A stretch of DNA of 64,000 bases, taken from contig PFVX01000014.1 of NCBI GenBank assembly GCA_002790835.1, forward strand, positions 1 through 64,000. The letters are read 5' to 3'. The position numbers were made by a program, and so were the translations under genes. Shown here one piece after another: positions 19,015 through 39,860 of the stretch. How positions within the stretch are numbered: the first letter of the stretch is position 1; every line of letters begins with the position of its first letter. The notes under the pieces are model-generated. The model was not told where the DNA came from and did no database searches. It saw nothing but the letters and a program-made list of their open reading frames with translations. Origin of the DNA: a bacterium CG_4_9_14_3_um_filter_65_15 (GTDB lineage Bacteria > Krumholzibacteriota > Krumholzibacteriia > LZORAL124-64-63).

Positions 19015-19109
19015 CATAATTGTGATGATCAACATTCATTGGATCCCGGCATGGTTAATTAATTAACGTGGCGGTAATTGCTTACACCACACCCTTCAGG
19101 GAGGTACCG

Positions 19110-20369
19110 ATGTTCAGGCAAAAGAACAAGACGTTTCGACCGGCATGGTGGGGGTTGAGCCTGCTCACCCTGGCCGGCCTGCTCTCCTTCTGGGGTTGCT
19201 TCGACAATCCCACCAGCTACGAGGACCTCGAGGCGGATATCGTCACCACCAAGACCCCCACCGCCTTGATCGAGCCCGCGACCCTGAAGCTCTGGATGGA
19301 CGAGGGGCGCGTCAACAGCACCGATCCGGACAGCCGGGACAAGGTCGTGGTGCTGAATGTTTCGGATTCTGCCCATTTCGACGCCGGCCATATCCCCAGC
19401 TCCCAGCTCTATGGTTACTCCTCGACCTTCGAGGTGCGGCTCGAGGGTGTCGCCACCGTTGGCCATATGGTTGTGGACGGACCCAACATCGATGCCCTGC
19501 TGCAGGGCTTCGGCATCGACAGCCACACCACCGTGGTATTCACCGTGAGCGATGGGCTGGACCTCCGGCAGGCCACGCGTGGCTACTTCACCCTACGCTA
19601 TTGGGGCTTTCCCAAGGAACGGCTGAAGGTCCTGCAGGGCGGGGATGTCGGCTGGGTCGCCGCCGGTTACCATCTCACCATCGATGAGGCCGACATCGCG
19701 CCCTCCACCTTCTGCGTGCGGGATCTTGCGACCTACAGCGATTTCGGGGGCGACCAGCGCGCGTCCATCGGGGAAGTGATCACCGCCGTGGACGGGCTCA
19801 ACAACGGCAACCCCGACAACATCGCCATCCTGGATGTCCGCAGCATTGGTGATCCTGACCGGGTCGCCTACATGGCCAACGCCGGCCTGGACGCCTGGAA
19901 CGCCGTCTACGCCGCCGGCACAACGACCACTCTGCTCCCAACAGCCGATCTCAAAGTCCACCTGGCCGATTTCGGCATCACCTCGGCGACGAACATGACC
20001 TACGTGTATTGCAAAAGTGGAGTCAAGGCCACCGTCGCTTACTTCATCCTCGACGGCATCCTCGAGTGGCCGACCCGGGTGTACGACGGCTCCTGGAAAC
20101 AGTGGAGTACCTACACGAGCGACAACGGGGTCGGGACGGATTGGCAAGTGGACACCGACACGCCGGGCACAACTTCCCCTCGCACCGGCGGCACCCTGAC
20201 CAGCGGCTCCATGGTCCTCGATCCGGTGGCCAACAGCCTCTACGAGTCGGTGGACGACTGGCGCGCGAACCAGATCGAGAACGAGGACCTGGAATACTTC
20301 TCCAGCGGTGCGGGCGGCGGAACGCCCCCGGCCGGGGGCGGTGGTACGGGCGGCGGCAGCGGCTGCTGA
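19110..20369 (+). CDS. extH: Rhodanese-like outer-membrane/periplasmic lipoprotein, ExtH type
   Basis: The 419-residue protein starts MFRQKNKTFRPAWWG behind GGGAGG, and Cys30 follows a lipobox-like LSFWG, so it should be a lipoprotein. It has two rhodanese folds. The first (about 50-195) lacks a catalytic Cys; the second (about 205-330) carries the active loop CKSGVKA with Cys301. The C-terminal 35 residues are Gly-rich and end Ser-Gly-Cys. Rhodaneses carry persulfide or perselenide on the loop Cys. In Geobacter sulfurreducens extH heads extHIJKL and precedes the porin ExtI, as here. I infer a role in handling reduced selenium or sulfur; it is cotranscribed with the porin 66 bp downstream. 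Confidence 0.82.
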   Translation: MFRQKNKTFRPAWWGLSLLTLAGLLSFWGCFDNPTSYEDLEADIVTTKTPTALIEPATLKLWMDEGRVNSTDPDSRDKVVVLNVSDSAHFDAGHIPSSQLYGYSSTFEVRLEGVATVGHMVVDGPNIDALLQGFGIDSHTTVVFTVSDGLDLRQATRGYFTLRYWGFPKERLKVLQGGDVGWVAAGYHLTIDEADIAPSTFCVRDLATYSDFGGDQRASIGEVITAVDGLNNGNPDNIAILDVRSIGDPDRVAYMANAGLDAWNAVYAAGTTTTLLPTADLKVHLADFGITSATNMTYVYCKSGVKATVAYFILDGILEWPTRVYDGSWKQWSTYTSDNGVGTDWQVDTDTPGTTSPRTGGTLTSGSMVLDPVANSLYESVDDWRANQIENEDLEYFSSGAGGGTPPAGGGGTGGGSGC

Positions 20370-20435: not shown

Positions 20436-21653
20436 ATGAAATTCCGCAGCTTGATCTACGTGATCGCTGGCACCCTGTTGCTGCTGGCCCAGGCGGCCCC
20501 GGCCACGGCCGGCCCGCAATTAACCTTCGGACCCGACGACGAGGGGGTCCTGCAGATCGATTACAAGAGCCAGTTCCGTATGCTGGTCAGCGATTCCGGT
20601 TCCGGCCCCGACGGCGGCGACACGACCATGAACATGAACTTCCGCCGCAACCGCCTGGCGTTCATGGGCGCCTATGGCGACATCATGAGCATCTACGTAC
20701 AGACCGAGTACGGCCAAAACATGAACATTGGTCCGCTGGGGGTCGCGGATTCCGACCAGGGCTCGAACTTCCAGATGCTGGACGCGGTGATTCGCTTCAA
20801 CCTGGACGAACGGTTCAAGCTCAACGTCGGCAAGTTCAAGTACAACCTATCCCGGGAGAACCTGGAAGGCTGCGAGGTTCCGCTGAACCTGGATCGCTCG
20901 GACTTCATCCGCACCTCCCTGGTGGCCACGCGTGACCAGGGCATCGCCGCCTGGGGCAACCTGGCCGACGGCCTGTTCCAGTATCGCCTGGATGTCATGG
21001 AAGGCCGCAACGCCGTGTCCGGCGCCGTGGCGCCGGCCTCCAACTTCCGCTATGCCGCCCGCATCCATTTCTCCCTGCTGGATCCCGAGACGGCCTACGG
21101 ATACAAGGGCACCTACCGGGGACAGAAGAAGGTCCTGACCATCGGCGGCGCCGTGGAAACCGAACCGGATGTCGTCTATGCGGATGTGGCCGCCCTGACG
21201 GGGGAGAAGGACTACAACGCCTACACCTTCGATGTCTTCTTCGAGTATCCCGTAGGCGAAGGTGGAGCCTTCACCCTCTCGGGCGCCTACGAGAACATCG
21301 ACTTCGACGATGCCTACAAGGGCCTGCACCCCGACCCCGGAACGGTCGGTCTCAGCGGCCAGAAGAACGGCTGGTACATCAAGTCCGGCTTCATGCCCTC
21401 CGGTTCGAAGGTGCAGCTGTTCGGGCGCTACGAGTCCTGGAATTTCGCCATGTTGAAGAATGTGTGTGACCAACAGATCGACTGGTACGGGTTCGGGGCC
21501 AACTATTTCTTCCCCGACGACAAGCTCAAGCTGACCGTCCAGTACAGCAGCACGACCTTCGACAAGAAGGGGGTTTTCGACGGCATGCAGGGAACAGGCC
21601 TGGTGACCGACGACTTCGGCACTTTCGTGACGCAGTTGCAGCTAGTCTTCTGA
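20436..21653 (+). CDS. extI: ExtI-type outer-membrane porin, copy 1
   Basis: A 405-residue barrel with signal peptide MKFRSLIYVIAGTLLLL..ATAG behind AGGAGAAGTGATTCC. Alternating strands run throughout, with conserved pieces FDDAYKGLHPDPG and a terminal DFGTFVTQLQLVF ending in Phe. It is clearly paralogous to the barrel at 29922-31271 (shared FNLDERFKLNVGK/RPAVNFKVGLTK, FDDAYK and DFGTF ends). Geobacter ExtI takes part in selenite and tellurite reduction, probably as their entry channel. Position right after extH supports the assignment; substrate is by analogy only. Confidence 0.8.
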   Translation: MKFRSLIYVIAGTLLLLAQAAPATAGPQLTFGPDDEGVLQIDYKSQFRMLVSDSGSGPDGGDTTMNMNFRRNRLAFMGAYGDIMSIYVQTEYGQNMNIGPLGVADSDQGSNFQMLDAVIRFNLDERFKLNVGKFKYNLSRENLEGCEVPLNLDRSDFIRTSLVATRDQGIAAWGNLADGLFQYRLDVMEGRNAVSGAVAPASNFRYAARIHFSLLDPETAYGYKGTYRGQKKVLTIGGAVETEPDVVYADVAALTGEKDYNAYTFDVFFEYPVGEGGAFTLSGAYENIDFDDAYKGLHPDPGTVGLSGQKNGWYIKSGFMPSGSKVQLFGRYESWNFAMLKNVCDQQIDWYGFGANYFFPDDKLKLTVQYSSTTFDKKGVFDGMQGTGLVTDDFGTFVTQLQLVF

Positions 21654-21770
21654 GGGTTTTGCCTCTGAGATTGTGTGCGGTCCGGGGCTTGCTCATGACA
21701 TGAAGTGACTGTGCGGGGATCTGGATCCCCGCCGGCGAACAAAAGATCAACAGGCGCCCGCCGGCGCAAA

Positions 21771-21806
21771 AAGAAGGGAGGCCGCAATGGCCTCCCTTCT
21801 TTCTTG
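21771..21806. terminator. Strong bidirectional Rho-independent terminator
   Basis: Arms AGAAGGGAGGCC (21772-21783) and GGCCTCCCTTCT (21789-21800) close a 5-base loop, with A-rich sequence before and TTTCTT after. It separates extH-extI from the convergent 12-heme cytochrome gene. Confidence 0.9.
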
Positions 21807-21821
21807 TCGGAGGGGGTGGGC

Positions 21822-23678
21822 TCAGGGACCGACCGTCAGCAGGTGCATATGGAGGGAGTCCTGCAGGGCGTCGTAGTCCAGGGGCGCGCGGTAGACGGGA
21901 TCATCGGCCCGGACATGACAGATCAGACACAGGTTGACGCTCCAGATCCGGCGCACTTCGCCGTCGTCCAGCGGACGCCCACCTTCACGGCTGATGGCGG
22001 CGTGGGCCTTCACCCTGCCGTTCTTCACTGTCAGGAAGCCGTCCAGGGGTTTGGTCGGATCCTTCTCGCAAAGCAGGGTGCCGCGGGGAATACCGCTCTC
22101 GACGATGTGCTGCCCGAAGCCCAGGAAGGCCGGGTCGCCATGGCACTCCGCGCATCCCACCGCTTTTTTCCCGATGTTGTGACCGAAGAACGGTGCGAAG
22201 CGCAGCTGGGGCCGGCCGCGGAAGCGCAGAACCTCCTCGTCCCTGGTGCGCACCCCGCCGGAATCGATGACCGTCACGAAGGTCTGGCACCCCGGCGTGA
22301 CCGCGGAAATGCGGCCCTCCCGGTTCAGCGCCAGCGGGAACGGGTACAGGGTCCGAACATCCTCCGTCTCGCTGAAGGTGCCCGGTGTGCCGCGGCCGGC
22401 GATGAAATCCCAGCCGTCTTCCCTTCGGTCGTACAACGTGTGGCATCCGAAGCACTGGACCACCGTATGCGAGTGGCAGGTGTGGCATCCCAGGCGCTGG
22501 TGGCCTGCAATATCGTGCTCCGGGGTACCCGTCACCACCGGGGAAAGCAACACCCGACCGCTGCGTTTGAGCATGACCCGAACCTGACCGCTGTCGGTAT
22601 ACACGTTGGAGAACGGGCGTCCGCGGCCGGTCAGGACGAAGCGGGTGCCCGGAGCCAGGGGCTTCCCGTACCGGCGGGATTCCCGCAGGGGCGAAGCGTT
22701 CTCCCGCCAGACGGCCTCGGCCCGCGGCCGGTTCCCGCCGTCCCCGTGACAGTCCTCGCAGCGGACCTCCAGCTGGCCGTGCATGCCCGCAGCGGCGTAG
22801 CCGTCGCCCATGATCTCGCGCGAGGTGTGGCAGTCGATGCACTCCATGCCGGCGGTAAAGTGGACATCGGGAATGATGTGGGAATAGCTGCGCATGTCGC
22901 TGGCCGACACCGGCCCCGGCAGGCCGCCGCGGGTGGGGACCAGCCCGTTGTTGCCGTCGTTCAGGCCCTGGTAGGCCAGGGCCATGCGCCCGCTGCGCTG
23001 ATGGCAGACCTGGCAGGCGGACATGGGCGGCAGGCCCTGCAGGGTGTGGGTGCTGCTGTGCATTTGCCGCCCCTGCATGGTGGAGTCACCGCCCCGGTAC
23101 ACCGCGTCCGGCGCGAAGGGAAAATGGCAGGCGGCGCACCCGGCCGGGTGACCTGCCCCGTCCTCGGCGTCGTTCTGCCGTCCCAGATGACAACGCGCAC
23201 AGAATTTCCTGTACAGCTCCCCGGAAAGGCCGCCCAGGGCCAGCACGGAAGTGTGGGCCAAAGAGTCCCCCCGGACATCGTGCAGCCGGCCCGAATGAGC
23301 GGCGAACACCACGCTGTCCCGCATACCTTCCCAGGTGGCCTGGATCTGGGCGATCATGCCCGCGTTGCTGAACATCTGGCTGCTGCGCATTCGTTCGACT
23401 TGCTGACGGTGACAGGATCCGCAGCCCTGCTCCCACCGCCCAGGATAGGAGGGGTCGGCCAGTCCGTAGATTCCCCTGTGGCTCGCCTGCTTCGTCTTCC
23501 CGGCCGGGTTACCTCCATGACAGCCGACACAGCCGTTGTGGGAGGCCGAGGCGGTCTCCAGTTCGGCATGGCAGCCGACACAGCCGTCGTCCGCCCCCTG
23601 CCCGCGGCTGCATCCTGCCGCGCCCAAGGACAGCCACGCAGCAGCAGCCAAAAGGAGCGTGACCCTCACCGACCTCAT
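21822..23678 (-). CDS. Twelve-heme c-type cytochrome lipoprotein (ExtS-like)
   Basis: The 618-residue protein has a lipoprotein signal (LSLGAAGC) and twelve CXXCH heme sites, beginning CVGCH, CVGCH, CGSCH, CARCH, CAACH, CQVCH and ending CAECH, CLICH. A haem-poor beta-rich stretch (about 330-390 and 440-520) lies between sites. A lipid-anchored many-heme protein this size can act as a periplasmic or surface electron wire or terminal reductase. It is transcribed divergently from the ExtM-type gene, sharing a 75-bp promoter region. I recall an ExtS cytochrome lipoprotein in annotated selenite/tellurite operons; that match is by description only. Confidence 0.8.
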   Translation of the reverse strand: MRSVRVTLLLAAAAWLSLGAAGCSRGQGADDGCVGCHAELETASASHNGCVGCHGGNPAGKTKQASHRGIYGLADPSYPGRWEQGCGSCHRQQVERMRSSQMFSNAGMIAQIQATWEGMRDSVVFAAHSGRLHDVRGDSLAHTSVLALGGLSGELYRKFCARCHLGRQNDAEDGAGHPAGCAACHFPFAPDAVYRGGDSTMQGRQMHSSTHTLQGLPPMSACQVCHQRSGRMALAYQGLNDGNNGLVPTRGGLPGPVSASDMRSYSHIIPDVHFTAGMECIDCHTSREIMGDGYAAAGMHGQLEVRCEDCHGDGGNRPRAEAVWRENASPLRESRRYGKPLAPGTRFVLTGRGRPFSNVYTDSGQVRVMLKRSGRVLLSPVVTGTPEHDIAGHQRLGCHTCHSHTVVQCFGCHTLYDRREDGWDFIAGRGTPGTFSETEDVRTLYPFPLALNREGRISAVTPGCQTFVTVIDSGGVRTRDEEVLRFRGRPQLRFAPFFGHNIGKKAVGCAECHGDPAFLGFGQHIVESGIPRGTLLCEKDPTKPLDGFLTVKNGRVKAHAAISREGGRPLDDGEVRRIWSVNLCLICHVRADDPVYRAPLDYDALQDSLHMHLLTVGP

Positions 23679-23732
23679 GACGGAACCTCATCCCTTGTCG
23701 ACAAAAGGCATTCCCAAGGTGATTTACGTGCC

Positions 23733-23754
23733 TGCACGAATTATATTTCGTGCA
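23733..23754. promoter_or_regulatory. 22-bp palindrome touching the start codon of the 8-heme cytochrome gene
   Basis: TGCACGAA-N6-TTCGTGCA is a perfect 8-6-8 inverted repeat. Its last base is the A of the ATG at 23754, and it lies between two divergent cytochrome genes. The transcript would lack room for a normal ribosome-binding site, so the repeat may be an operator or an mRNA hairpin masking the start. Confidence 0.5.
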
Positions 23755-24887
23755 TGGCCAACTTGCGAGGCATTGTCCTAATCACGATGGCCCTTCTACC
23801 GGGGTTTTCCCGCCTGCCCGCCACGGCTGAACTCCCCCCCGCCACGGGCGACTGCGCCGCCTGCCATTCTGCCCAGGCTGCCGTCCTGTCCGGGATCATG
23901 GCCACCCGAAGCGGTGAACGCGCCTTCTTCTGCCGCGCCTTCGGCAAGGAGGGCGAGGATTTTTTCCAGGCTTCCTGCACCGGGTGCCACGTCACGTCCT
24001 GCGAGGATTGCCATCGTGACGACGCCCATCGATCGCCGGCGTCTTATGATCCCGCCTGCCTGGGCTGCCATCGCGGTTACTTCACCGGCTGGGACTACTA
24101 CGGTCGAGCGCCGCGCGAGGACCACGAGCGCTACCAGCGCGGCCCCTCCGACCAGGGCGAACATTACCTGACCATGCTGCCGGATGTGCACCGGGAGGCC
24201 GGTCTCGGCTGCGCCGACTGCCACCGCATCCACGCCACGGAAAAATCCGTTCGGACCTGCCGGGACTGTCACAGTGACCCTGACCGCAGCATCCCTGAAC
24301 ATGCCATCCAAATCCACCTGGACCGGATGGAATGCTCCGCCTGCCACGCCGCCTGGGCCGCCCAGGAGTACGGTACGACGCTGGTTAAGACCGTCACCGA
24401 CGAACAGGAAGATGCATTCGAAGCCCTGCCGTGGGCGGGGCCGTGGCAGAAGAGTGCGGCCCTGCGCCGACAGGATGCCCCCCCCCTGGGGCTGAACGCC
24501 CGGGGACGGGTCTCCCCCATCAGGCCCCAATTCATCCTTCTGGCCACCGACTCCGGACACGGCTGGGAGAACAAGCTGCTCGCCGCGGAGTGGAGGGCGT
24601 TCTCCCCCCATACCATCAGGCCTGGATCCGTCACCTGCGGAGGCTGTCACGACAACCCCCGCCGCTTCATGCTGGAGAGTGCGCAGCAACGCATCTTCGA
24701 TCTGCGCGCGGACGGTCTGCCCCTGGTATCCTGGTGGGACCAGACCGGACAGCAGGTCGTCAACGGAAGCTTCCTGTCCCGGGAACGCTTCGTGGAAATG
24801 AACACGCGGACGCCCGAATACGTGCGTCAGCATCTGAGGCGATGGCAAAATTTGTTGAATCCCGACGCCGATTCCTCAAGTCGCTGA
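23754..24887 (+). CDS. Eight-heme c-type cytochrome (ExtM-like)
   Basis: A 377-residue protein whose first residues [19 protein letters not shown] form a signal peptide. Eight CXXCH motifs follow: CAACH, CTGCH, CEDCH, CLGCH, CADCH, CRDCH, CSACH and, after a 120-residue insert with an [11 protein letters not shown] segment, CGGCH. It heads a tight operon: its last 46 bases overlap the Rieske gene. It should take electrons from the adjacent Rieske/cytochrome b proteins in the periplasm. The open frame extends far upstream of this ATG, but only antisense to the 12-heme gene. No Shine-Dalgarno site is seen; a palindrome lies there instead. Confidence 0.8.
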
Positions 24888-25249
24888 TCCCCGTGGTGGC
24901 GGGAATCGTCGGCCTGGGGAAATTCCTTTCTCCGCGGCTGCCCACGGGCACGGCGCAGGTGTCCGTACCGGTTGCCGACGTCCCGATCCGGGGCGCCCTT
25001 GTCCTGCCGGGCGAGGGGATCGCGGTGACCCAGTTGGAGGGCGGCCGTTTCACCGCCCTTGACCTGACCTGCACCCACCTGGGGTGCCGGGTGCGGGCCG
25101 ATGAGAAGGGATTCACCTGCCCCTGCCACGGTAGTCGCTTCGATTCCCGCGGCCGGGTACTGACGGGGCCGGCCGCCGCGCCGCTGCACCGGCTCGAAGC
25201 CGGCATCCGGGACGGCGTTGTCCACATCACCGGCAACCGGAGGGCGTGA
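24842..25249 (+). CDS. extO: Rieske [2Fe-2S] protein (ExtO-like)
   Basis: The 135-residue protein has a twin-arginine-type signal/anchor ([18 protein letters not shown]) and a Rieske fold with cluster ligands in CTHLGC (Cys77, His79) and CPCHGS (Cys93, His... His96). The small size matches menaquinol:acceptor Rieske subunits. With the two cytochrome b halves downstream it forms a bc/b6f-like quinol-oxidising module. It overlaps the 8-heme gene by 46 bp, and its stop TGA joins the next ATG as TGATG. Confidence 0.9.
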
Positions 25250-25866
25250 TGAGGGATTTCCTCAAACATCTGTTCCCCCGCGTCGTGCTGGAGCGTAACC
25301 TGCGCCTGACCTATACCTTCTGCCTGGGCGGGTTGGCCCTGACCACCTTCCTGGTCCTTGTCCTCACGGGCCTGCTGCTGCTGTTCTACTACCGGCCCTC
25401 GCCGGGCGGGGCCTACGATTCCATCCGCTTCATCGAAAACGCCGTGTGGGGCGGCCGCTATCTGCGTTCCCTGCATCGCCTGGCCTCGCACACGCTTCTG
25501 GTCCTGATCATGCTGCACGCCCTGCGGGTCATCCTGACCGGCGCCTACCGGCACCCCCGGCACGGCACCTGGGTCGTGGGCACCATGCTGATGTTCCTGG
25601 CGGTGTTCGCCGCCTACACCGGATACCTGCTGCCGCTGGATCAGCTAGCATACTGGGCCGCCCGCACGGGGATGGAGTTGCTGCGGGCCCTACCCGGGGG
25701 CGCGGTGATCTTCCACCTGCTGGTGCCCGACCAGATCGCGGGGCCGCTTTCCCTGCAGAGGTTCTTCGCCCTGCACATCGCCGTCATTCCCTTGAGCATG
25801 ATGGCGTTGATCTTCCTGCACTTTTTCCGGATCCGCAGGTCCAGAGGGTTGTTGCCGTACCTATGA
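25249..25866 (+). CDS. extP: Cytochrome b N-terminal half (b6-like, ExtP-like)
   Basis: A 205-residue membrane protein with four helices. Bis-His heme ligands sit at His76/His90 (SLHRLAS..IMLH, 14 apart) and His176/His191 (ALHIAVI..FLH, 15 apart), the b6-type spacing. It would hold two b hemes and the quinol sites together with the next subunit. The start overlaps the Rieske stop (TGATG); a GTG three bases earlier is also possible. The stop overlaps the next ATG. Confidence 0.9.
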   Translation: MRDFLKHLFPRVVLERNLRLTYTFCLGGLALTTFLVLVLTGLLLLFYYRPSPGGAYDSIRFIENAVWGGRYLRSLHRLASHTLLVLIMLHALRVILTGAYRHPRHGTWVVGTMLMFLAVFAAYTGYLLPLDQLAYWAARTGMELLRALPGGAVIFHLLVPDQIAGPLSLQRFFALHIAVIPLSMMALIFLHFFRIRRSRGLLPYL

Positions 25867-26273
25867 AGGATCAGGTTCCCAGTTCCCCCAGCCTTTTCCG
25901 CCTGATCAAACGGGCGCTGCTGGTCGCCGTGCCCCTGGTGCTGTTGGCCGCGGTGTTCATCCCCGCGCCCCTGGAAACCCTCGCCGACCCGGCCCATCCC
26001 CCCAATCCCGCCAAATCGGCGTGGTTCCTGCTGTGGATTCAGGAAGTCGTCAGCCACGGCACGGTCTGGATCTACCCCATCCTTGTCCTGGCGCTCGTCT
26101 TTGTGTTCCTGCCCTGGCTGCGGCCGAGAGATGCAGCGCGCGCCGCCTGGTTCCAGCCGGGCGAACGCCTGCCGGGGACGGCGGTCCTGGCCGTCTTCCT
26201 GGCCATCATTATCCTGACCCTGGTGGCCCAGTTCCTGAGAGGACCCAATTGGCAACTGCACGCGTGGTTTTGA
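25863..26273 (+). CDS. extQ: Cytochrome b C-terminal half (subunit IV-like, ExtQ-like)
   Basis: A 136-residue protein with about three hydrophobic helices and the subunit IV motif DPAHPPNPAKSAWFLLWIQE, placed as in b6f subunit IV before the helix that follows the quinol site. Together with the b6-like gene (ATGA overlap) and the Rieske gene it completes a split bc-type complex. It has no heme ligands of its own, as in the family. Confidence 0.85.
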   Translation: MKDQVPSSPSLFRLIKRALLVAVPLVLLAAVFIPAPLETLADPAHPPNPAKSAWFLLWIQEVVSHGTVWIYPILVLALVFVFLPWLRPRDAARAAWFQPGERLPGTAVLAVFLAIIILTLVAQFLRGPNWQLHAWF

Positions 26274-27031
26274 TTGCGGGACTGCTGTTGACATATGCAC
26301 TGGCCGCCGCCGCGCAAGAGGGCGGTTGCGTTTCCTGCCATGAGACCCACTTCACCCGGGAGGGTCGCTGCGCCTCCTGCCACCGCGGAGATCCCCAAGC
26401 CGTGCGAGAGACCCTCGCCCACCACGGCCTGTTGCGAGGACCTGCGGCGGCGTGGCGTATGCCGGGCTCGCCCATCCTGACCCGCGGCCGGGCGATGCGG
26501 GACAGCCTGGGCTGCAGGCGCTGCCACACCACCGGCGGCCGTGGCGAACGCCTGGCCATCGACCTGGACACCGCCGTTTGGGAGAGAAGCCAAACACAAC
26601 TCCGGGACGCCCTGCAGAAACCTGCGGCAAGCATGCCCGACTTCGCGTTGACCACCGCCCAGTGCGACACCCTGGCGGCCCTGCTGCTCCACGACGGGGA
26701 CCCCCATCCCGCCCAGGAAACATATCAGGTGCGCTTCCAACACACCGCCAGCGACACCGTGCCGGTGTTCACCCGCCTGTGCGGCGATTGCCACCGCGCC
26801 CTGGGCCGGGGCGGCCCCATGGGATCGGGCCGGGACGGCCCCGACCTGTCTGGTCTGACTGGGGAATTCTACCCCGTCCCCATCGACGCTCGCTGGGATG
26901 CCGAGCGCCTGGAAAAGTGGCTGGCCAATCCTCGGTCCCTGCGGCCGGCCACCACCATGCCCCCCGTCCGGGTGAATCGCGGGGAACTGCAGGCCATCCT
27001 CCGGGAACTCTCCGGCCTTCCCGCCCGGTAG
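26249..27031 (+). CDS. Four-heme c-type cytochrome of the Rieske/b operon
   Basis: The likely start is TTG at 26249 behind GAGAGGA; an in-frame GTG at 26264 is the alternative. A signal peptide (VVLIAGLLLTYALAAAAQ) is followed by four CXXCH sites: CVSCH, CASCH, CRRCH and CGDCH. The last lies in a mono-heme cytochrome c-like domain with a distal Met in TMPP. It overlaps the end of the subunit IV gene by 25 bp, so it probably is the cytochrome c partner of the Rieske/b complex, like cytochrome c1 in function. Confidence 0.78.
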   Translation: MATARVVLIAGLLLTYALAAAAQEGGCVSCHETHFTREGRCASCHRGDPQAVRETLAHHGLLRGPAAAWRMPGSPILTRGRAMRDSLGCRRCHTTGGRGERLAIDLDTAVWERSQTQLRDALQKPAASMPDFALTTAQCDTLAALLLHDGDPHPAQETYQVRFQHTASDTVPVFTRLCGDCHRALGRGGPMGSGRDGPDLSGLTGEFYPVPIDARWDAERLEKWLANPRSLRPATTMPPVRVNRGELQAILRELSGLPAR

Positions 27032-27063: not shown

Positions 27064-28017
27064 ATGGAACTCCTGCTGTTCAGAACTTTCGCGGTCGTGG
27101 CCGAAACCGGCAGCTTCACTGCCGCCGCCGAGCGTCTTTGCGTCACCCAGTCCGCGGTGTCCCGCCGCATAAGGCAGCTCGAAGACCAGTACGGCGTCCG
27201 ACTCCTTGAACGGGGCGTCGACTCGGTGTCTCCGACCACGGCCGGGGCGATGGTGCTGCAGAAGGCGCGGAAGATCCTGGCTGTTGAGAACGAGATGGAA
27301 GAGGAAGTCGCCGAACTTGCTGGCAAGAAGCGCTTGGGGTTCTGCTGCACCCCCTGCTTCGGCACCGGTATTCTGCCCCGGGTTTTCGAGCGCTTCGTGG
27401 CCACCGACGGCATGGTCTGCGATTTCAATATTAATTTCCTGATGCCGGAAGAGATCGCCGTCGGCATCCGCAACGGAACCTACGATTTCGCCGTCGTGGA
27501 ACACTGCGACGACCTTGACCCCAACGGTGTGCCACACCACGCCCTGCCACCTGACACCATGCTTTTCGCGTCTGCTCCCTCACTGCACCTGGACCAGTCC
27601 ACGGTCACCATGGAGGATCTCGCCCGCTATCCCCTGTTTCTCAAGGCGCCTCACGGCTGCGCCTACCGCTTCATCCAGAGCGGTCTGCGGTCCCTGGGCC
27701 ACAGCATGGACGTCCTGCCCAACCTGGCCTTCTACGACGACCTGCCGGGGTTGATCCAGCAGGTGGTCGCCGGCATGGGGATCGGCTTCCTTTCACGAAC
27801 CCTGATAGGTGCCGAACTGGAAGCGGGAAAGCTCCGCATCCACCGGATGGAAGGGCTTAACCAGTTCCGGCAACGAACGCTCCTGCTTGCCCCGGGCCGG
27901 GAAACGAAACCCCTGATCCGGGATTTCATCGCTGCGATCTTCGTCGAACTGGGAGCCGTGGTGCCGGTTGAATTCAGCTCCTCTCCAAATGGTAAACCGG
28001 CCGCAGGCAGCCAATGA
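27064..28017 (+). CDS. LysR-type transcriptional regulator 2 of the respiratory island
   Basis: A 317-residue regulator, MELLLFRTFAVVAETGSF, with LysR helix-turn-helix LCVTQSAVSRRIRQL and an effector domain opening GFCCTPCFG; APHGCAYRF appears in the second lobe. It is closest in this window to the LysR at 18051. It lies 32 bp downstream of the tetraheme gene in the same direction. TATATT stands 7 bases before the ATG and no Shine-Dalgarno site is visible, so it may be read from its own leaderless transcript. Confidence 0.88.
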   Translation: MELLLFRTFAVVAETGSFTAAAERLCVTQSAVSRRIRQLEDQYGVRLLERGVDSVSPTTAGAMVLQKARKILAVENEMEEEVAELAGKKRLGFCCTPCFGTGILPRVFERFVATDGMVCDFNINFLMPEEIAVGIRNGTYDFAVVEHCDDLDPNGVPHHALPPDTMLFASAPSLHLDQSTVTMEDLARYPLFLKAPHGCAYRFIQSGLRSLGHSMDVLPNLAFYDDLPGLIQQVVAGMGIGFLSRTLIGAELEAGKLRIHRMEGLNQFRQRTLLLAPGRETKPLIRDFIAAIFVELGAVVPVEFSSSPNGKPAAGSQ

Positions 28018-28074: not shown

Positions 28075-29421
28075 CTACGAACCTGAATTCACGAAGCTGA
28101 TCGTCCGCCTCTCTTCCCTCCACAGGAAGGCATCCTCGTCCTTGGTGCCGTAGGGCAGATACCAGAGCTTCACCTCGATGTCCATGCTGTCGCTGGGATA
28201 GGTACGGACCGTCTCGTCACCCTGCTCCACCTCTTCCACCGGGAAGAAGATGTCATAGGACGTTTTCACCGTGCGCAGCGGCGGCAGGCTGTTGTCCTGC
28301 AGGAGGCCGCTCTTTTCGTAGGGACCGCGTCCCATGCGGTCCCCGCGACCCATGCGCTGGGGAACCGGCATGAAGATCCGGTCCTGGTTGAAGATCTCGG
28401 TGCCGCTTTCGTCGCTCGCTGATACCGACAGAACCAGTCGGTTGGGAGTCGGTCAGCCGTCGGGTATGCCGTGACCGGCCTGGTTCGTCAGGTCGATTTC
28501 CACCGTGGCCTTGGGCCGCATGGTTGAAACATCCCTCCAGACGACGGCCTGGGTGGTGACCTCCATGGCGACGGCCTTGTCGGACATCACCTTGGCCCGA
28601 TAGCTCTGCATATTGTGACCGAGGCCTGATTCCTCCATATGGCACTGCTGGCAGGTCTTGTGCCCGCCTTCGGGGATGTAGGCGAACAGATAGCTGCCGT
28701 AGGCCGTGGCGCATTGGGTCGGATTTTCCAGTTCGAAGTTCGGGCCCTCGCCGTGGCACTGGCCGCAGAAGATCGAGGCGCCCATGATGGGGCTGGTTTC
28801 CTTGCGGCTGAAAGTCTCGTCTTCGTGCGCGATGTCGCCGCCGGCCAGGCCGTACACCGTATCGGTGCGGGGATAGCCGTCGGTCCACTTGTGCGTGATG
28901 GCGTTGCGGTTGTGACAGACCAGACAGTTGATGTTGAGCGAGAGGAGAGTCTCCTCCAACTCGTCCGCCTTGTCGTCATCCTCGTCCAGGTAGGCCGTCC
29001 GCCACGCGTCGATACTTTCCACGATCTCGCGGGCGACATCGTCCGTGGCGTCGGCCAACTGGGGCAGGTGGCACTTGGCGCACCCCATGAGGTGCTCCAC
29101 GCGCACGTCCTTCAACTCCTCAACACCCGATGCCTTCCAGGTCATCAGGCCGTTGAGGATGGCCGTGCGGAAGGTCAGGGCCGTCCGCCCCGTGCCGAAC
29201 AGGGAGCGGGAATGGGCCGATTCGCTCCACTGCTCGTGGGCTTCCTCGTGGCATTCGATACAGGATTCCGAATCGTAACGGGCCACCAGTTCGGCGATGG
29301 TTTTCGCCTTAAACCTCGCGGCCAGGGTCTGGTCGCGACCGATGCCCGCTGGGTGGTCATCGCCGGCCAGAGCCGGTGCAGCCACGACAAGAATCCCTGT
29401 GATGATCAGGGACCATTTCAT
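28075..29421 (-). CDS. extKL: Multiheme c-type cytochrome, probable selenoprotein (ExtKL type), in-frame UGA at codon 323
   Basis: The product is read as 448 residues with selenocysteine at codon 323 (TGA, 28455-28453). The start MKWSLIITGILVVAAPALAG is a signal peptide. Five CXXCH sites lie at 54, 114, 166, 219 and 257. A beta domain holds GHGIPDG, then UGA, then PTPNRLVLSV, and the frame stays open with matching codon bias for 125 more codons to TAG. Many multiheme cytochromes have a GHxxPTGxPxxR motif here, so the UGA replaces one residue in a conserved strand. A fitting SECIS hairpin follows. Gene context (ExtJ and ExtI type genes upstream) matches Geobacter extK and extL, which I recall being interpreted as one (seleno)protein. 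Without recoding it would be two fragments. Confidence 0.82.
28424..28442 (-). promoter_or_regulatory. Bacterial SECIS hairpin downstream of the extKL UGA
   Basis: Starting 10 bases after the UGA, ACCGAC pairs with GUCGGU in six base pairs. They enclose the 7-base apical loop UGGUUCU, which begins 16 bases after the UGA and has G at its second position. These features (short upper stem, 3-14 base loop, G among the first two loop bases, 16-37 base distance) are those of the bacterial SECIS element read by SelB. The GGU in the loop also occurs in the E. coli fdhF element. Confidence 0.65.
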
Positions 29422-29516
29422 GCAGGACCTCGCCTTCGGGGGAAAAGGAAGACGGGCGCACGGATCAAACCGAACCGGCCGATGAAAACGACCCGCGCGC
29501 CCGAATCCGAACAACA

Positions 29517-29837
29517 TCAGCAGCCGGAAAGGACCTTCTTGGCCTTCTTGATGTCCACCTTGTCGCCGACCTTGACCTTGACGGCCTTCTTCACGACCAA
29601 CGTGACCAGGAATTCCTCCTTGTCCACACCGATGATGGCGGCCTTGACCTTCTTGTCGATCTGGATTATCCGGCCTTCCTTGACCCAGTCAGCCTTGGCG
29701 AAGTCGGCCTTGACGACCTGCACCGTCAGGGTGTCGCCCTTGACGGTTTTGACCGTGCCCTCGAAGTGGGTCGCGGCCTGGGCCAGGGTGGCCCCGAAGA
29801 CCAGAATGGCCAGGATGATGAGTGTGCGCTTGATCAT
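29517..29837 (-). CDS. extJ: Small periplasmic protein, ExtJ type
   Basis: A 106-residue protein with signal peptide MIKRTLIILAILVFGATLAQA behind AAAGGAG. The mature part is a small beta-barrel-like domain rich in Lys and Val (FEGTVKTVKGDTLTVQVVK) resembling an OB-like fold, and it ends Ser-Gly-Cys, exactly as the ExtH-type lipoprotein does. It sits between extI-like and extKL-like genes, the Geobacter order. Its function is unknown; the lone C-terminal Cys is the only obvious reactive group. Confidence 0.75.
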   Translation of the reverse strand: MIKRTLIILAILVFGATLAQAATHFEGTVKTVKGDTLTVQVVKADFAKADWVKEGRIIQIDKKVKAAIIGVDKEEFLVTLVVKKAVKVKVGDKVDIKKAKKVLSGC

Positions 29838-29921: not shown

Positions 29922-31271
29922 CTAGAACACAACCTGCAGCATGGTGCGGAAGGTGCCGAAGTCCTTCATACCGGTAACCATGTTACCCATGCCGACGGGA
30001 AGGGCGGTCGGCTTGTCGAAATCGGTCTTCTGGTATTCCGCCGTGATCCTCACATTCTGCCTGTGGATGTAGTAATTGAGCCCGTACGAGTACTGGGTAA
30101 TGGTCTGGTCCGCGACTCCGGCCAACGCGGCGAATTCCCAGTTTTCATAGACGAAATAGGGCTGAATCATGCCTTCCTCGCCCACCGCACCGGGCAGGAT
30201 CCAGGCCAGCTTACCGAAGCCACCTTCCTTCTGGCCGTTTAGACCGGCGATAACGCCGAGCAGGTCCCCGGGGTTGTGGTTGGTCTTGTAGGCGTCGTCG
30301 AAGTCGACTTTCATGTACTGCCCATTCACCGTCACCGTTCCGGCAGACTCGAAGGGGTACTCGAAGAATAGGTCAGCCGCATACTCGTTCATGTCGGCGG
30401 TCTGGTCGTCGAGGACGCTCACCGCGCCGGTGTTCGGATCGAAATTCACGTTCCTGTACACCGCACTCGCCTCGTGCGCCATGGCCAGGCCGATGGTAAA
30501 CACGGGCATTTCCCCGAAGTAGGTGCCGACATAGCCCGAACCGAGTTCGGGGTCGAGGAAGGAATAGTGGATCCGGGCCGTGAACTCGAGGTTGCTGGCC
30601 GGCTCGAATGTCGTGCGGTATGTCATGGCGTTCAGGGGGTTGGTCAACATGGTGACGCCCTCACGCCCCTGGAACGCTCCGAGGAAATACTTGAAGTGGT
30701 CCTCATTGAAGTTACCGTGCATCACCACGCCGATATCACGACTGAACTTGGCGGCCGAGACCCCATAGGCGCTGTAGGTGAAGTTCGACCGGTCGTAGGT
30801 CAGGGGCGCGAAACAATCATCGAGATTTGCGCGTGAAATGGGCATCTTCGTCAGGCCCACCTTGAAATTCACGGCGGGTCTGAAATTGGCGATGGCGTAG
30901 GTGTCGATGATTCGGATATCCCGGTCGTTGTCGTTGGACGACTCCATCTCCGGAATGAACCCGATGGGCGTTCGGGTCGAACCGATGTGGCCGCAGGTCT
31001 GGAATTTGTAGCCCCACACGTCGTCGATCATGCCCGTGGCCGTCAGACGCAGCCGCTGGAAATGCAGGTCGGTGCGGCTGTCCTGGAAATCCAAACCCGA
31101 TCCGAAATCCAGAGTCTCGATGTAAACCTGCCCTTTGAGGTCGATCTTCAGGAACCCCTCATCCCCGAAGTCGATGATCGGGCCCGCGAAGGAAACCGTC
31201 GCCATGGCCAGAAGGCAGAGAATTGCTGCGATACTGGCGGTTTTTCCTGAAAAAACCAGGTTCCTGAACAT
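29922..31271 (-). CDS. extI: ExtI-type outer-membrane porin, copy 2
   Basis: A 449-residue barrel. MFRNLVFSGKTASIAAILCLL is the signal start, behind AAGGAGAGGATC; an upstream in-frame ATG would only add a hydrophilic leader. Strand pattern and pieces such as FDDAYKTNHNPGD and the terminal DFGTFRTMLQVVF relate it to the copy at 20436. It is about 45 residues longer, with inserts in extracellular-loop positions. It leads an extI-extJ-extKL operon and is divergent from lysR3. Duplicated ExtI porins may differ in oxyanion preference (inference). Confidence 0.8.
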   Translation of the reverse strand: MFRNLVFSGKTASIAAILCLLAMATVSFAGPIIDFGDEGFLKIDLKGQVYIETLDFGSGLDFQDSRTDLHFQRLRLTATGMIDDVWGYKFQTCGHIGSTRTPIGFIPEMESSNDNDRDIRIIDTYAIANFRPAVNFKVGLTKMPISRANLDDCFAPLTYDRSNFTYSAYGVSAAKFSRDIGVVMHGNFNEDHFKYFLGAFQGREGVTMLTNPLNAMTYRTTFEPASNLEFTARIHYSFLDPELGSGYVGTYFGEMPVFTIGLAMAHEASAVYRNVNFDPNTGAVSVLDDQTADMNEYAADLFFEYPFESAGTVTVNGQYMKVDFDDAYKTNHNPGDLLGVIAGLNGQKEGGFGKLAWILPGAVGEEGMIQPYFVYENWEFAALAGVADQTITQYSYGLNYYIHRQNVRITAEYQKTDFDKPTALPVGMGNMVTGMKDFGTFRTMLQVVF

Positions 31272-31427
31272 GATCCTCTCCTTTTGGTTATCAAACCCCA
31301 CTGTTCGTCCGGGAGTCACCGCCGGGTCCGGGGCATGGGTCTTCTGGTTGCAATTATCCAGCTGTCAATCCATATTCAAAGTGAGTGGTTTTCATGCCGG
31401 GATACCTGTTACGCATAGGGGTTTGAC
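31272..31427. promoter_or_regulatory. Divergent control region lysR3 / extI copy 2
   Basis: This 156-bp spacer must hold both promoters. A weak LysR-like core ATT-N11-AAT lies at 31353-31369. There is no perfect palindrome like those at 18993 or 23733, so the operator is not firmly placed. Confidence 0.3.
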
Positions 31428-32333
31428 ATGGATTCGGTCTACCTCCAAACGCTGCTGGAAGTAGTTGAAAAAGGGAGCCTTACGGAGGCGGCGGAATATC
31501 TATGCGTGACCCAGTCCGCCGTTTCCCGCCGGCTGAAACACCTTGAGGACCAGTTCGGTCAAACTCTTTTCGATCGGTCCGGTCCCCAGCCCGTGTTGAC
31601 CCCGGCCGGCACCATCATCTGCGACAAGGCGCGTCGCATCCTGGAACTTGAACAGGAACTGACCGGGGAAATCGCCGGCAGGGACTGGATCAAACCCGTG
31701 CGTTTCTGCTGCACTCCCGCCTTCGGCATGTCCCACCTGCCCCGGATCATGCGCCGATTCATGCAGGGTGGGCGATCACGGGCCGGTATCGAGATCCATT
31801 TCGACGTTCCCGACAGGATCCTCTCGGGTATGCAGAGCCACCATTTCGACATCAGCGTCCTGGATTTCAACGGCTGCGGCCGGTGGGATGGACTGATTTC
31901 GACGCCTCTTCCAGGCGACGAAATCCTCTTTCTGAGCTGTTCATGCCTCGGTTTGCCCAGCCCCGACATCTTTCTTTCGGAACTGTTCGCGCACACCCTG
32001 ATCACCCGCAAGGAGGGTTGCTGCTCGCGGCGCTGCCTGGACGGAAATCTGGAATCCGCCGGCTTTTCCGAGGCCGATTTCCGCAGTGTGTTGGTCATCG
32101 ACGACCTGCACCTGATCACCCAGGCCATCAGGGAAGGTCAGGGCATCACCTACCTGCCCTCGGACCTCTTCCGTGAACAATTGGATGCGGGGGACTTCAA
32201 GCTCCACCGGGTGCAGGAGTTCAACCACTGCCGCTCCCGAGCCCTGCTGGTGGATCCCGACGGCGCCGACAAGCCGCTGGTCCATGCCTTCATCGAGAGT
32301 ATCAAGGCCGAAACCCTGGGCAAGACCGACTGA
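31428..32333 (+). CDS. LysR-type transcriptional regulator 3 of the respiratory island
   Basis: A 301-residue regulator, MDSVYLQTLLEVVEKGSL, with LysR helix-turn-helix LCVTQSAVSRRLKHL. Its effector domain starts RFCCTPAFG, so the Cys pair is kept but the third Cys of the motif is Ala. The second lobe has the Cys-rich KEGCCSRRC where the paralogues have NGCAHRF or HGCAYRF. It is divergent from the extI-extJ-extKL operon and probably controls it. AGGGG precedes the ATG. Confidence 0.88.
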   Translation: MDSVYLQTLLEVVEKGSLTEAAEYLCVTQSAVSRRLKHLEDQFGQTLFDRSGPQPVLTPAGTIICDKARRILELEQELTGEIAGRDWIKPVRFCCTPAFGMSHLPRIMRRFMQGGRSRAGIEIHFDVPDRILSGMQSHHFDISVLDFNGCGRWDGLISTPLPGDEILFLSCSCLGLPSPDIFLSELFAHTLITRKEGCCSRRCLDGNLESAGFSEADFRSVLVIDDLHLITQAIREGQGITYLPSDLFREQLDAGDFKLHRVQEFNHCRSRALLVDPDGADKPLVHAFIESIKAETLGKTD

Positions 32334-35897: not shown

Positions 35898-36293
35898 CCC
35901 CTCGTCATCACCCTACGAGATCCATCGATCCCGTTGCAAGGCGGAAATCAACCGGGCAAACCAGGTTGAGATTTCGCCGTGCCCAGGGACGGAATTCGAT
36001 ATGTTATTGTGTTGACACATTTTCCCGCTCTACCGGTAGGAATTGTACCACATGTCGGCATCAAGGATATCCGGCGGGAAATACCAACCTGAAAAATAAA
36101 TACAAAGTCATTTAGATACAACAAGTTACAAAACTTAAATCGGACATTTTTTGTGTTGATAAAAAATTATCACAAGGATCGATTATTGCTTTACAGATCT
36201 CCGAGCAGCCCGATAGCTTATCACAGGTTTGTCATAGTTGACCCCAACAAGGCGGTTGGAAACTTGCGTTACAGATGCCCGAATTCGCGTCGG
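35898..36293. promoter_or_regulatory. AT-rich control region upstream of the porin-cytochrome conduit
   Basis: This 396-bp spacer is the most AT-rich stretch of the window (36090-36175). A consensus -35 TTGACA lies near 36013. At 36151-36175 there is a symmetrical element TTGTG-N15-CACAA containing a TGATAA/TTATCA hairpin around four A (36157-36172). I see no gene. Promoter activity in both directions is likely. Confidence 0.45.
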
Positions 36294-37226
36294 ATGACGG
36301 GGAGTCTGGCCATTGGTGGAGCCCTCCTGATCATGATCTGGCCGATGGTCGCCGCCGCGGCCACCGCGGACGGCGGGAGGCCCGACACTCAGGCCTGCCT
36401 GGATTGCCATGAAGACAGGGCCACCTCCCTGACCGGCGGACCCCATGCCGTCCTGCAGGACGGAAATCTGACCGATGTCGCCTGCGGCTCCTGCCACGCC
36501 GGCACTGCGGCCCACTGGGAGGATGACCCCGAAGCCTACCCGCGTGTGAATCCGGCGGCGGAAAACGCCGAAGGAACCGCGGCAATCTGCATAGGTTGCC
36601 ACCAGGAACCCCATGTCTACAGCCAGGCCAAGACCGGCCCCCACGCCGTCGCGGGGACGTCCTGCCTGGACTGCCACAGCGTCCACGGCTCCCAGGCGGA
36701 CCACCTGCTCAAGGCGGCCCAACCGGAGCTGTGCTACACCTGCCACGAGCAAGTGCGCGGGGAAATCGCCCAGCCGTACCGCCATCCGGTCGGCGAGAAC
36801 GAATTCATGCAGTGCTCGAGTTGCCACCTGGGCTCCGAGGGCAATCCCGACGTCGGCTCCTACCGGGGGCTCAACACCATGTGCCTGAAGTGCCACGCCG
36901 AGTTCCAGGGGCCCTTCCCCTACGAACACCAGGCGACCGTGGATTACGGGACCGAGGGCGGCGGATGCGTCGCCTGCCACAGCCCGCACGGTTCGGTCAA
37001 TCCGCAGTTGCTGAAGCAGCCCTACGAGGCCCCGCTCTTCCCGGCCTGCACGCAATGCCACTCGGTGGCTCTTCACAACAACAACAGCAACCACGGCAAC
37101 GAATGGAAAGGCGTCTCCTGCACGGAGTGCCACGTGGACGTCCACGGCTCCTACACCAACAAGAACTTCCTGTCGACCGCTCTGGAGGCCCAGGGGTGCT
37201 TCGCGGCCGGCTGCCATTCCCGATAG
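36294..37226 (+). CDS. Periplasmic decaheme (+1) cytochrome of a porin-cytochrome conduit (MtrA/DmsE type)
   Basis: The 310-residue protein starts MTGSLAIGGALLIMIWPMVAAAA (signal). It has ten CXXCH sites, from CLDCH and CGSCH to CTQCH and CTECH, with MtrA-like pieces CIGCHQEPHVY, CLDCHSVHG and CVACHSPHG. The C-terminal CFAAGCH is a CX4CH, a possible eleventh heme site. MtrA-type proteins thread hemes through an outer-membrane barrel. The barrel and an external lipoprotein cytochrome follow at once, so this is the inner part of an electron conduit. The start is chosen at the signal peptide; its ribosome-binding site is weak. Confidence 0.85.
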   Translation: MTGSLAIGGALLIMIWPMVAAAATADGGRPDTQACLDCHEDRATSLTGGPHAVLQDGNLTDVACGSCHAGTAAHWEDDPEAYPRVNPAAENAEGTAAICIGCHQEPHVYSQAKTGPHAVAGTSCLDCHSVHGSQADHLLKAAQPELCYTCHEQVRGEIAQPYRHPVGENEFMQCSSCHLGSEGNPDVGSYRGLNTMCLKCHAEFQGPFPYEHQATVDYGTEGGGCVACHSPHGSVNPQLLKQPYEAPLFPACTQCHSVALHNNNSNHGNEWKGVSCTECHVDVHGSYTNKNFLSTALEAQGCFAAGCHSR

Positions 37227-37238
37227 GAGGGTTACGCC

Positions 37239-38831
37239 ATGCGTTGGAAAATCAAAACCCTCGGGATGACGCTGCTGCTGGTCGTTGGTCCGCTGGCTTC
37301 CGCCTGGGCGGGAAGCTTGAACGGCACCGTCAAGGTCGGGGGCATCTTCAAGGATGAAACCGCCGGCGACCTGAGCGTCATGCCCGAGACCTTCAACATC
37401 TACGAAGGTTTCACCATCTCCGGCATCGACCTGAACGGAACCGTGGGTCGCCGCGGCTACTACCGGTTGGATGTCCGCGAGGTGAACCAGGAGAGTGCCC
37501 GCGGGATCTTCTCCTTCCGGGTTCCGAGCCGGTTCAACATGTTCATGCGCTACGACCGCCACCGTCAGCTCTTCGACCCCGCCGGCCAGGTCGAAAGCGT
37601 GCGCAAGAACCTGCGCGGCGGTTTCGTGCTGACACCTTCTGCGGACCTGAAGATCAGCGCGAACATCGGCAACCAGAAGAAGACGGGCAGCCGTATGTCC
37701 TACCTGCCCAATGAACCGGGCTTCCTGGGAAGCGGCTACGACAACAACCTGACCACCGGCCGCGTGGAGATCGCCGGGAACCGGGGGGGACGTTCGCTGG
37801 CCGCAGCCTACGACTTCTCCACCTTCTCGGACGACAACCTGGCCGCGGCCGACCGCAGCGGCGGGGTCTTCTCGGTGCGGCTCAACGGCCCCTGCTACCT
37901 GCTCCCGGATGTCGTGTCCCACCTGGTGCGGGCGTCCTACGGCAAGCAGAAGTTGACGGCCGTGGGCACGGATTACGAACTGGGCACCTTCCAGTACCTG
38001 GGCGTGGTCAAGCCCGCTCCCCAATGGCGGCTCAAGTACGGGTTCAACGCCACGACCGTTGACGACAAGTCCACGGACTACAAGACCGACGAGGTGCGCA
38101 ACGACTTCGACGCGGTGTGGTATGGCCCCCAGGGCAGTGTCAACGCCGGGTACGGCCGCGTGATCCACGACAGCTGGCAGGTGACCACCGCCAACGTCTG
38201 GCGCCTGGGCGGCACCTGGAGGATCCAGGATAACGCCAAGGTGCGCGTGGGCTACGACTCGAACCGGAAGACCGACGAGGAGCAAACCACCCTGCTGAAG
38301 GACATGGAAGCCAGTCGGTTCAGCGCCGACCTGGAGATCGAGGCCACGGACGAGCTGAGCTTCGGCGGCGGCTACATGGACCGCCAGCGCAGTTTCCCGC
38401 TCGTCGGTGTCGAGACCACCGGCAAGCGGTACCGTGCCTTCAGCCGCCTCGAACTGTCCGGCTGGGGCTCGCTGAACGTCGACTACATCTACTCCGACGA
38501 CGACTACACGGATTTCGACGGCAACGACGACGGCGGCGAGACCACCTGGACGCATTTCCGCGCCGACAACAGCACTGTCACCGGCCGGGTCGACGTCGAC
38601 ACCATCCGGAATCTCAAGCTTTCGTTCGGGGCGACCTATCTCGATATCGGCAAGGATCTCGACATCGAGAAGTCCATCCTGTCCTTCGCGGGCCATTACG
38701 ACATCGGCAAGGATTACTTCTTCGAGGCCAAATACAACGTTTTCAACTACGACGACTACATCCTTCTGGACCGCTACTACACGGCGAACGTCGTGTGGGT
38801 GAACTTCGGATACAGACTGTCGGTTGACTAG
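37239..38831 (+). CDS. Outer-membrane barrel of the porin-cytochrome conduit (MtrB/PioB-like)
   Basis: A 530-residue barrel with signal MRWKIKTLGMTLLLVVGPLASAWA behind GGAGGGTTACGCC. Regular amphipathic strands with short turns (GRRGYYRLDVREVN, FMRYDRHRQLFD) suggest some 26 strands, as in MtrB-type sheaths. It lies 12 bp after the decaheme gene. Its role would be to enclose the periplasmic cytochrome so that electrons cross the outer membrane. It does not end in the usual aromatic residue (RLSVD). Confidence 0.82.
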   Translation: MRWKIKTLGMTLLLVVGPLASAWAGSLNGTVKVGGIFKDETAGDLSVMPETFNIYEGFTISGIDLNGTVGRRGYYRLDVREVNQESARGIFSFRVPSRFNMFMRYDRHRQLFDPAGQVESVRKNLRGGFVLTPSADLKISANIGNQKKTGSRMSYLPNEPGFLGSGYDNNLTTGRVEIAGNRGGRSLAAAYDFSTFSDDNLAAADRSGGVFSVRLNGPCYLLPDVVSHLVRASYGKQKLTAVGTDYELGTFQYLGVVKPAPQWRLKYGFNATTVDDKSTDYKTDEVRNDFDAVWYGPQGSVNAGYGRVIHDSWQVTTANVWRLGGTWRIQDNAKVRVGYDSNRKTDEEQTTLLKDMEASRFSADLEIEATDELSFGGGYMDRQRSFPLVGVETTGKRYRAFSRLELSGWGSLNVDYIYSDDDYTDFDGNDDGGETTWTHFRADNSTVTGRVDVDTIRNLKLSFGATYLDIGKDLDIEKSILSFAGHYDIGKDYFFEAKYNVFNYDDYILLDRYYTANVVWVNFGYRLSVD

Positions 38832-38867
38832 GACGGGATGAAAGATCCCACAAGGAGGAGAAGAAAA

Positions 38868-39860
38868 ATGTCCAAGACTCTGAAGACCCTGATGCTCGTG
38901 TTCGGCCTGCTGGTCCTGATCGGGCTGGGAGCCTGCAGCCGTGACGTCACCACCGTGCTCGATCCCGGCGCCTCGCTCTGCTTCAACTGCCACAGCGACC
39001 AGGACACCTACCTGATCGACAAGCAGATGGAGTGGGCCTACTCCAGCCACGGAATCGGCAACTACGTCGCTTACGCCGGCGGCCGCAGCGGCTGCTCCGG
39101 CTGTCACTCGGGTGCGGGCTTCGAGGCTCGCCTGGCCGGCGAGACCGAGGTGCCTTACGCCACCCCGATCCGCTGCTTCAGCTGCCACGCTCCGCACAGC
39201 AACGCCAACTTCAACCTGCGCGTGACCGAGCCCCAGCCCCTGGCCAGCGGCTACACCATGGACCTGGGCGTCAGCAACCTCTGCACGGCTTGCCACGTTG
39301 GCCGCACCTCCGTGGACGACGCGGTTCCCCACGACGCCACTGAGGCCTCGGTCACCAGCACGCACTGGGGCGCCCACCACGGGCCGCAGGGCGACCTCTT
39401 CATGGGCCAGAACGGCTACGAATACGACGGCGTCACCTACCGCCGCGCCGTGCCCCCGGCCCACAACACCGACGAGTCCCGTTGCTTCGGCTGCCACGGC
39501 AACGACAACCCCGCGATCGACCTGGGCGGGCACTCCTTTATCCAGGATAACGGCGCCGATGAAGACAACCTCAACGTGGCCAGCTGCAACCGCTGCCACA
39601 GCGACCTGGAAGACTTCGACGTCAACGACGTCCAGACCGAGGTCGAGGACATGATGGCCGAACTCCAGGGCCTGCTGATCGGCATGGGTCTGCTCGATTC
39701 CGAAGGCGGCCTCATCAAGGACGTCACGGGCACCCCCGACGAGATCGGCGCCGTCTGGAACTACATCCTGGTCGAAGAGGACCGCAGCGCGGGCGTGCAC
39801 AACCCCGATTACATTCGCGACCTGCTTCAGGGCTCTCTCGACTATCTGAACAGCAAGTAA
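38868..39860 (+). CDS. Hexaheme surface lipoprotein of the conduit
   Basis: The 330-residue protein starts behind AAGGAGGAGAAGAAAA and has a lipobox LIGLGAC. Six CXXCH sites follow: CFNCH, CSGCH, CFSCH, CTACH, CFGCH and CNRCH. The C-terminal 90 residues lack hemes and are helical and acidic. As third gene of the decaheme-barrel-lipoprotein set it should be the outward-facing terminal cytochrome (the MtrC/OmcB role). I found no close named family. Confidence 0.8.
   Translation: MSKTLKTLMLVFGLLVLIGLGACSRDVTTVLDPGASLCFNCHSDQDTYLIDKQMEWAYSSHGIGNYVAYAGGRSGCSGCHSGAGFEARLAGETEVPYATPIRCFSCHAPHSNANFNLRVTEPQPLASGYTMDLGVSNLCTACHVGRTSVDDAVPHDATEASVTSTHWGAHHGPQGDLFMGQNGYEYDGVTYRRAVPPAHNTDESRCFGCHGNDNPAIDLGGHSFIQDNGADEDNLNVASCNRCHSDLEDFDVNDVQTEVEDMMAELQGLLIGMGLLDSEGGLIKDVTGTPDEIGAVWNYILVEEDRSAGVHNPDYIRDLLQGSLDYLNSK

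Follow-up and report, generated by a model that had tools for sequence, protein, structure and literature searches.

An ExtKL-type pentahaem cytochrome with a probable selenocysteine residue in a member of the Krumholzibacteriota

The gene at 28075-29421 on the minus strand of the window (the whole 64-kb stretch of DNA that was analysed) encodes ExtKL, a secreted pentahaem c-type cytochrome of an already known family, here in a copy from a different phylum. Its frame contains one in-frame UGA, and we consider it highly probable that selenocysteine (Sec) is inserted at this codon into a single ExtKL polypeptide. The UGA had been read as Sec in the initial annotation, and this reading is supported by results computed here: the affiliation with NCBIfam family NF040886, the exchange of UGA and Cys codons among homologues, the conservation of a SECIS hairpin and the Sec machinery of the genome.

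The extKL gene and its ext neighbourhood

The frame starts with ATG at 29421, preceded by purine-rich AAGGCGAGG (29428-29436, minus strand), a probable ribosome binding site, and ends with TAG at 28077-28075. The product of 448 residues begins with an apparent signal peptide and carries five CXXCH haem motifs, at residues 54, 114, 166, 219 and 257. As described initially, the frame is open except for the TGA at 28455-28453 (codon 323), and the 125 codons downstream keep the same codon bias, with GC contents by codon position of 0.60/0.45/0.83 before and 0.58/0.43/0.82 after the TGA. The downstream part stays open in only 1.6% of base shuffles. The family profile NF040886, labelled ExtKL, ‘multiheme c-type cytochrome (seleno)protein’, matches the product at 571 bits (cut-off 250) over model positions 18-422 of 423, and the top Pfam matches are haem domains. 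This match, the five motifs and the single UGA at residue 323 identify the product as ExtKL; the nearest protein chains in the PDB lead to the same identification (see below).

The cytochrome had also been placed among ExtH/I/J-like genes, and the neighbourhood proved to be richer than that, with ExtH, two ExtI, a J-like protein and homologues of ExtN, ExtP and ExtS. The plus strand encodes the rhodanese-like protein ExtH (19068-20369; NF040901, 317 bits), the first ExtI porin (20436-21653; NF040900) and an ExtN-like multihaem cytochrome region (23841-24887; NF040967, 468 bits, residues 713-1058), the latter being the C-terminal part of an ORF at 21705-24887 with eight CXXCH motifs. These are followed by a Rieske-domain ORF in the ExtO position (24431-25249; PF00355, residues 192-253), whose actual start is probably further downstream, an ExtP-like b-type cytochrome (25246-25866; NF040969, 221 bits, below the cut-off of 290) and the tetrahaem cytochrome ExtS (26021-27031; NF040971, 247 bits, domain from residue 81, four CXXCH). 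Upstream of extKL and on its strand are genes for an ExtJ-like small protein (29517-29837; NF040942, E 6e-8, below the curated cut-off) and a second ExtI-like porin (29922-31319; NF040900). Matches over the cut-off were thus obtained for H, I (two), N and S. Two LysR regulators of the multihaem-cytochrome-associated type (NF041036), both on the plus strand, are convergent to extKL (27064-28017, 281 bits) and divergent from extI2-extJ-extKL (31428-32333, 280 bits), respectively. ExtM was not found in the ext neighbourhood of the window by the family profile search.

Several features of this region deserve mention in their own right. Two ExtI-type porins are encoded at one locus on opposite strands, with 600 and 316 bits. 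The profile NF040968 bears the name ExtO iron-sulfur subunit, yet it scores 473 bits with the multihaem ORF 21705-24887, no worse than the ExtN profile, and gave no match to the Rieske ORF 24431-25249; this model looks misnamed or duplicated. Genes for a decahaem DmsE-like cytochrome, a 530-aa protein without a family match and an MtrC-like protein with six CXXCH motifs lie in a row at 36153-39860 and look like a separate outer-membrane electron conduit. The ORF at 40044-43337 encodes a large protein in which PKD domains occur together with an endonuclease I domain.

Selenocysteine machinery, the UGA site and the SECIS hairpin

The genome that contains the window (3.39 Mb, 94 contigs, 95% complete) was searched for selA, selB, selD and tRNA-Sec, as the initial annotation had proposed, and all four are present with scores over the cut-off (SelA 446 bits, SelB 308, SelD 361, tRNA-Sec 69.6). 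The selD gene (L018, G000:C8:31606-32523) itself has one in-frame TGA, and SelD of this genome is probably a selenoprotein, too.

Homologues were collected in a genome scan for ExtKL with 28 loci and in searches of two classes, where matches were found in 63 of 277 genomes (the class around a Desulfuromusa genome) and in 97 of 258 (the class around a Desulfopila genome), nearly all of them with exactly one internal TGA. Every UGA-type homologue compared has its UGA exactly at the position of residue 323. In the Desulfopila class, seven genomes each contain a full-length homologue free of stops that has TGC or TGT instead and reads GHRFPDG[C]PSPNR at the site; one of these homologues, when scanned, was a member of NF040886 at 474 bits. 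Two of the seven genomes (G395 and G412) possess a UGA copy in addition to the Cys copy. The alignment at residue 323 that had been suggested as a check therefore returned UGA, or Cys in seven cases, and no variable residues, within an otherwise invariant loop GH-x-(I/F)PDG-U/C-P.

The SECIS hairpin (28424-28442, minus strand) has the form ACCGAC-UGGUUCU-GUCGGU with its loop at 28436-28430. Its geometry is as described in the initial annotation: the 6-bp stem starts 10 nt after the UGA, and the loop, with G in second place, starts 16 nt after it. Likewise, the claim that this is the geometry of bacterial SECIS elements holds on all points of the published bSECIS model (PMC13188914), that is, an apical loop of 3-9 nt (here 7), an upper stem of 4-16 bp (here 6), a G as first or second base of the loop, usually with G or U next to it on the 3' side (here U-G-G), a loop that starts 16-37 nt after the UGA (here 16, the lower limit) and a minimum free energy of -7.5 kcal/mol or below (-9.1 for the hairpin by itself and -12.2 when 45 nt are folded). 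The combination of UGA and hairpin is unique within the window, where none is expected by chance. Compared with shuffled sequences, the folding energy is unexceptional (z = -0.55 for 45 nt and -1.5 for 22 nt) and uninformative; alone it is weak evidence, and the comparative evidence is strong. A longer alternative, in which the first CCGAC right after the UGA pairs with GUCGG in a fold of 75 nt, is unsupported because base 6 varies freely (C/T in several sequences) and its partner is a constant C in form A (see below).

Among 29 homologues, the excess of synonymous identity reaches 0.38 at codons 323-332, against a median of 0.05 (sd 0.06) over 388 ten-codon windows; this is the highest rank of all, and each of the twelve highest-ranking windows overlaps these codons. 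We sorted 124 UGA-region loci, which give 95 distinct sequences when the 42 bases from the UGA onwards are compared (some loci were fetched twice from one genome), and recognised two forms of the hairpin. Form A, shared by the window gene and the Desulfuromonadia type, has six of six stem pairs in all 36 distinct sequences, a figure that is partly a product of construction, as the sequences were sorted by the 3' arm GUCGG and the 5' arm was left unused. Form B reads GGUCC-UGGAU-G(U)GACC, and its loop begins at a distance of 22 nt from the UGA. All five pairs are kept in 54 of its 59 distinct sequences; the other five can form a variant with a shifted bulge, GGCAC-UGUAU-GUGACC. Both loops read UGG, with UGU in some form B genes, which fits the published bSECIS rules. 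The constrained codons follow the hairpin, from +5 to +9 in form A and from +6 to +11 in form B. Neither hairpin is kept in the seven Cys genes, and no matching constrained block was seen in them, though with seven sequences only.

Covariation is thin, because the stems hardly vary within each form: each alignment holds one compensatory double change, and in one form B gene (L179) GGUC/GACC is replaced by GAUC/GAUC. Covariation counts for the form A structure gave no signal above shuffles, as the majority of stems do not vary and the alignment still included form B sequences. RNAalifold run over all forms together produced no sensible structure, since two different hairpins were mixed.

One polypeptide or two

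In the proposed mechanism, SelB and tRNA-Sec, together with the downstream hairpin, would recode the in-frame UGA during translation. The product would be one secreted five-haem cytochrome of 448 residues, with Sec323 in the invariant loop GH-x-IPDG-U-P, inside a C-terminal β-sandwich that the UGA would otherwise halve. From the loop, the haems and the ext context we infer that Sec most likely serves as a redox-active or catalytic residue, which would receive electrons from the haems of the ext electron-transfer cluster. The ext cluster has been described in Geobacter, where ExtI was linked to selenite and tellurite reduction (Jahan 2018; PMC5877670). Going by this context, reduction of selenite or tellurite is the best guess at the reaction, with about even chances of being right.

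The pair GSU2937 and GSU2936 of Geobacter sulfurreducens was first proposed as a selenoprotein by Fujita 2007 (PMC1914089). As neither a SECIS nor a non-Sec homologue was found at that time, ‘a highly conserved operon’ was left open there, in line with the older Geobacter annotation of two genes. In such an operon the UGA would stop translation and extL would start anew, for example at Met351, and a two-gene structure is still described in the cable bacteria paper. We regard this as very unlikely. In the Cys homologues a single protein continues across the site, where the codon is either UGA or one for Cys and TAA and TAG do not occur. The UGA genes have a SECIS-like element that is maintained, and the PDB contains a homologue that was deposited as a single chain under a selenoprotein name. 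Purifying, protein-level selection acts on the stretch from the SECIS to Met351 (codons 334-350), where pN/pS is 0.44-0.47, close to the 0.34-0.35 of the codons before the UGA. The AlphaFold model (mean pLDDT 60, too weak for placing Sec near a given haem) has β-strands at 284-313 before the UGA and at 328-442 after it, so that a stop would split that domain. The UGA/Cys exchange, the synonymous constraint at the UGA and the two placements of the SECIS speak against the conserved-operon reading of 2007. The comparison answers the doubt left at that time, namely whether a single selenoprotein or a pair of genes is behind ExtK and ExtL.

A UGA followed by C is a leaky stop context, and C follows the UGA in the window gene and in every UGA-type homologue compared. 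This would favour plain readthrough or suppression with Trp, Cys or Arg and without selenium, an explanation to which we give even less weight than to the operon: the sole sense residue at the site is Cys, the usual partner of Sec, the hairpin constraint is confined to UGA forms, and the Sec machinery is complete. The assembly is a multi-contig draft, and a sequencing error or a pseudogene might be suspected. Nevertheless, the same UGA occurs in a relative from the same genus at 89% identity and in two more genomes of this family, and it recurs in other groups in many independent genomes, which makes a base error very unlikely, and the codon bias is kept in the downstream frame; error and decay are together the least credible of the explanations, extremely improbable in our view. 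Insertion of Sec into one polypeptide is retained as the preferred reading.

Relatives, distribution and origin

The initial annotation was right that Geobacter extK/extL had been treated as one (seleno)protein. The type is already documented as ExtKL (NF040886) and is listed among selenoprotein families in a 2026 review (PMC13188914). The window protein resembles G. sulfurreducens ExtKL in its full-length family match, five CXXCH motifs, UGA site and ext neighbours, but its host belongs to another phylum, and extI2-extJ-extKL is on the strand opposite to extH-extI-extN-O-P-S, with LysR genes between and beside them. The nearest PDB chains (best E 5e-171) are those of MccSep, ‘Multiheme cytochrome c selenoprotein’ (9wt8-9wtc), a solved homologue whose residue U325 (printed as X, and as A in the U325A mutant) aligns with residue 323; its sequence differs from that of the window protein, and it is thus probably from another organism. 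The pentahaem cytochrome c552 of Thermochromatium tepidum (5ze8) has a related C-terminal stretch (phmmer E 4e-7) and is the best fold match of the AlphaFold model, albeit with a low TM; it has Ala (GAP) and no Sec at the equivalent position. The pentahaem cytochromes sPHC and lPHC of cable bacteria, described as potentially catalytic, form one family with ExtKL by fold according to the cable bacteria paper, but their gene context differs from that of the window, and the word selenocysteine is absent from that paper. Annotation with the standard code will keep splitting extKL, as it probably did there.

In 80 genomes of the phylum, selA was detected in 77 and tRNA-Sec (over the cut-off) in 69, whereas ExtKL occurs in only four, from two genera of one family. 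The window protein shares 89% identity with the ExtKL of a genome that bears the label Candidatus Krumholzibacteriia. Ext-type Sec cytochromes thereby extend beyond Desulfobacterota into a phylum with near-universal use of Sec and rare ExtKL. In a first tree the four Krumholzibacteriota-type sequences group together (support 99) beside six sequences of the Desulfuromusa class, inside the form A clade and nested among Desulfuromonadia sequences. When the UGA/SECIS region was masked, form A again made up a single clade (support 97), and a total of two changes, the minimum possible, accounts for forms A, B and Cys. The rooting and the position of the Cys clade are uncertain, as both depend on long branches; one partial sequence with a long branch (L078) was excluded from the second tree.

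The simplest reading of these sequences suggests one horizontal transfer of extKL with its SECIS into a lineage that already used Sec, and we infer that it was probably acquired from Desulfuromonadia. On the whole, it seems likely that a gene for a selenoprotein passed from one phylum to another and took its SECIS along, that the SECIS moved once by six bases within the family and dragged the encoded residues along, and that one side lineage swapped Sec for Cys and lost the SECIS. If so, ExtKL represents a natural experiment in which the relocation of a SECIS and the exchange of Sec and Cys can be followed in a haem protein. The pieces missing in 2007 are now supplied, namely a conserved SECIS, homologues with Cys and a SECIS whose position differs between branches of the family; these and the new host are the additions made here, some of which may be known elsewhere, as the literature survey was partial.

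A divergent second group of UGA-bearing ExtKL-like genes (L152-L160, L166, L172-L176), with GHRIPDG-U-LWSGKVVLEVTA at the site and a form B SECIS, accompanies the standard ExtKL in some genomes. Two further ExtKL-type genes (L161 in G133:C82, and G459:C82:313239-314429) have an extra in-frame TAG besides the UGA, which we read as decay or sequencing error.
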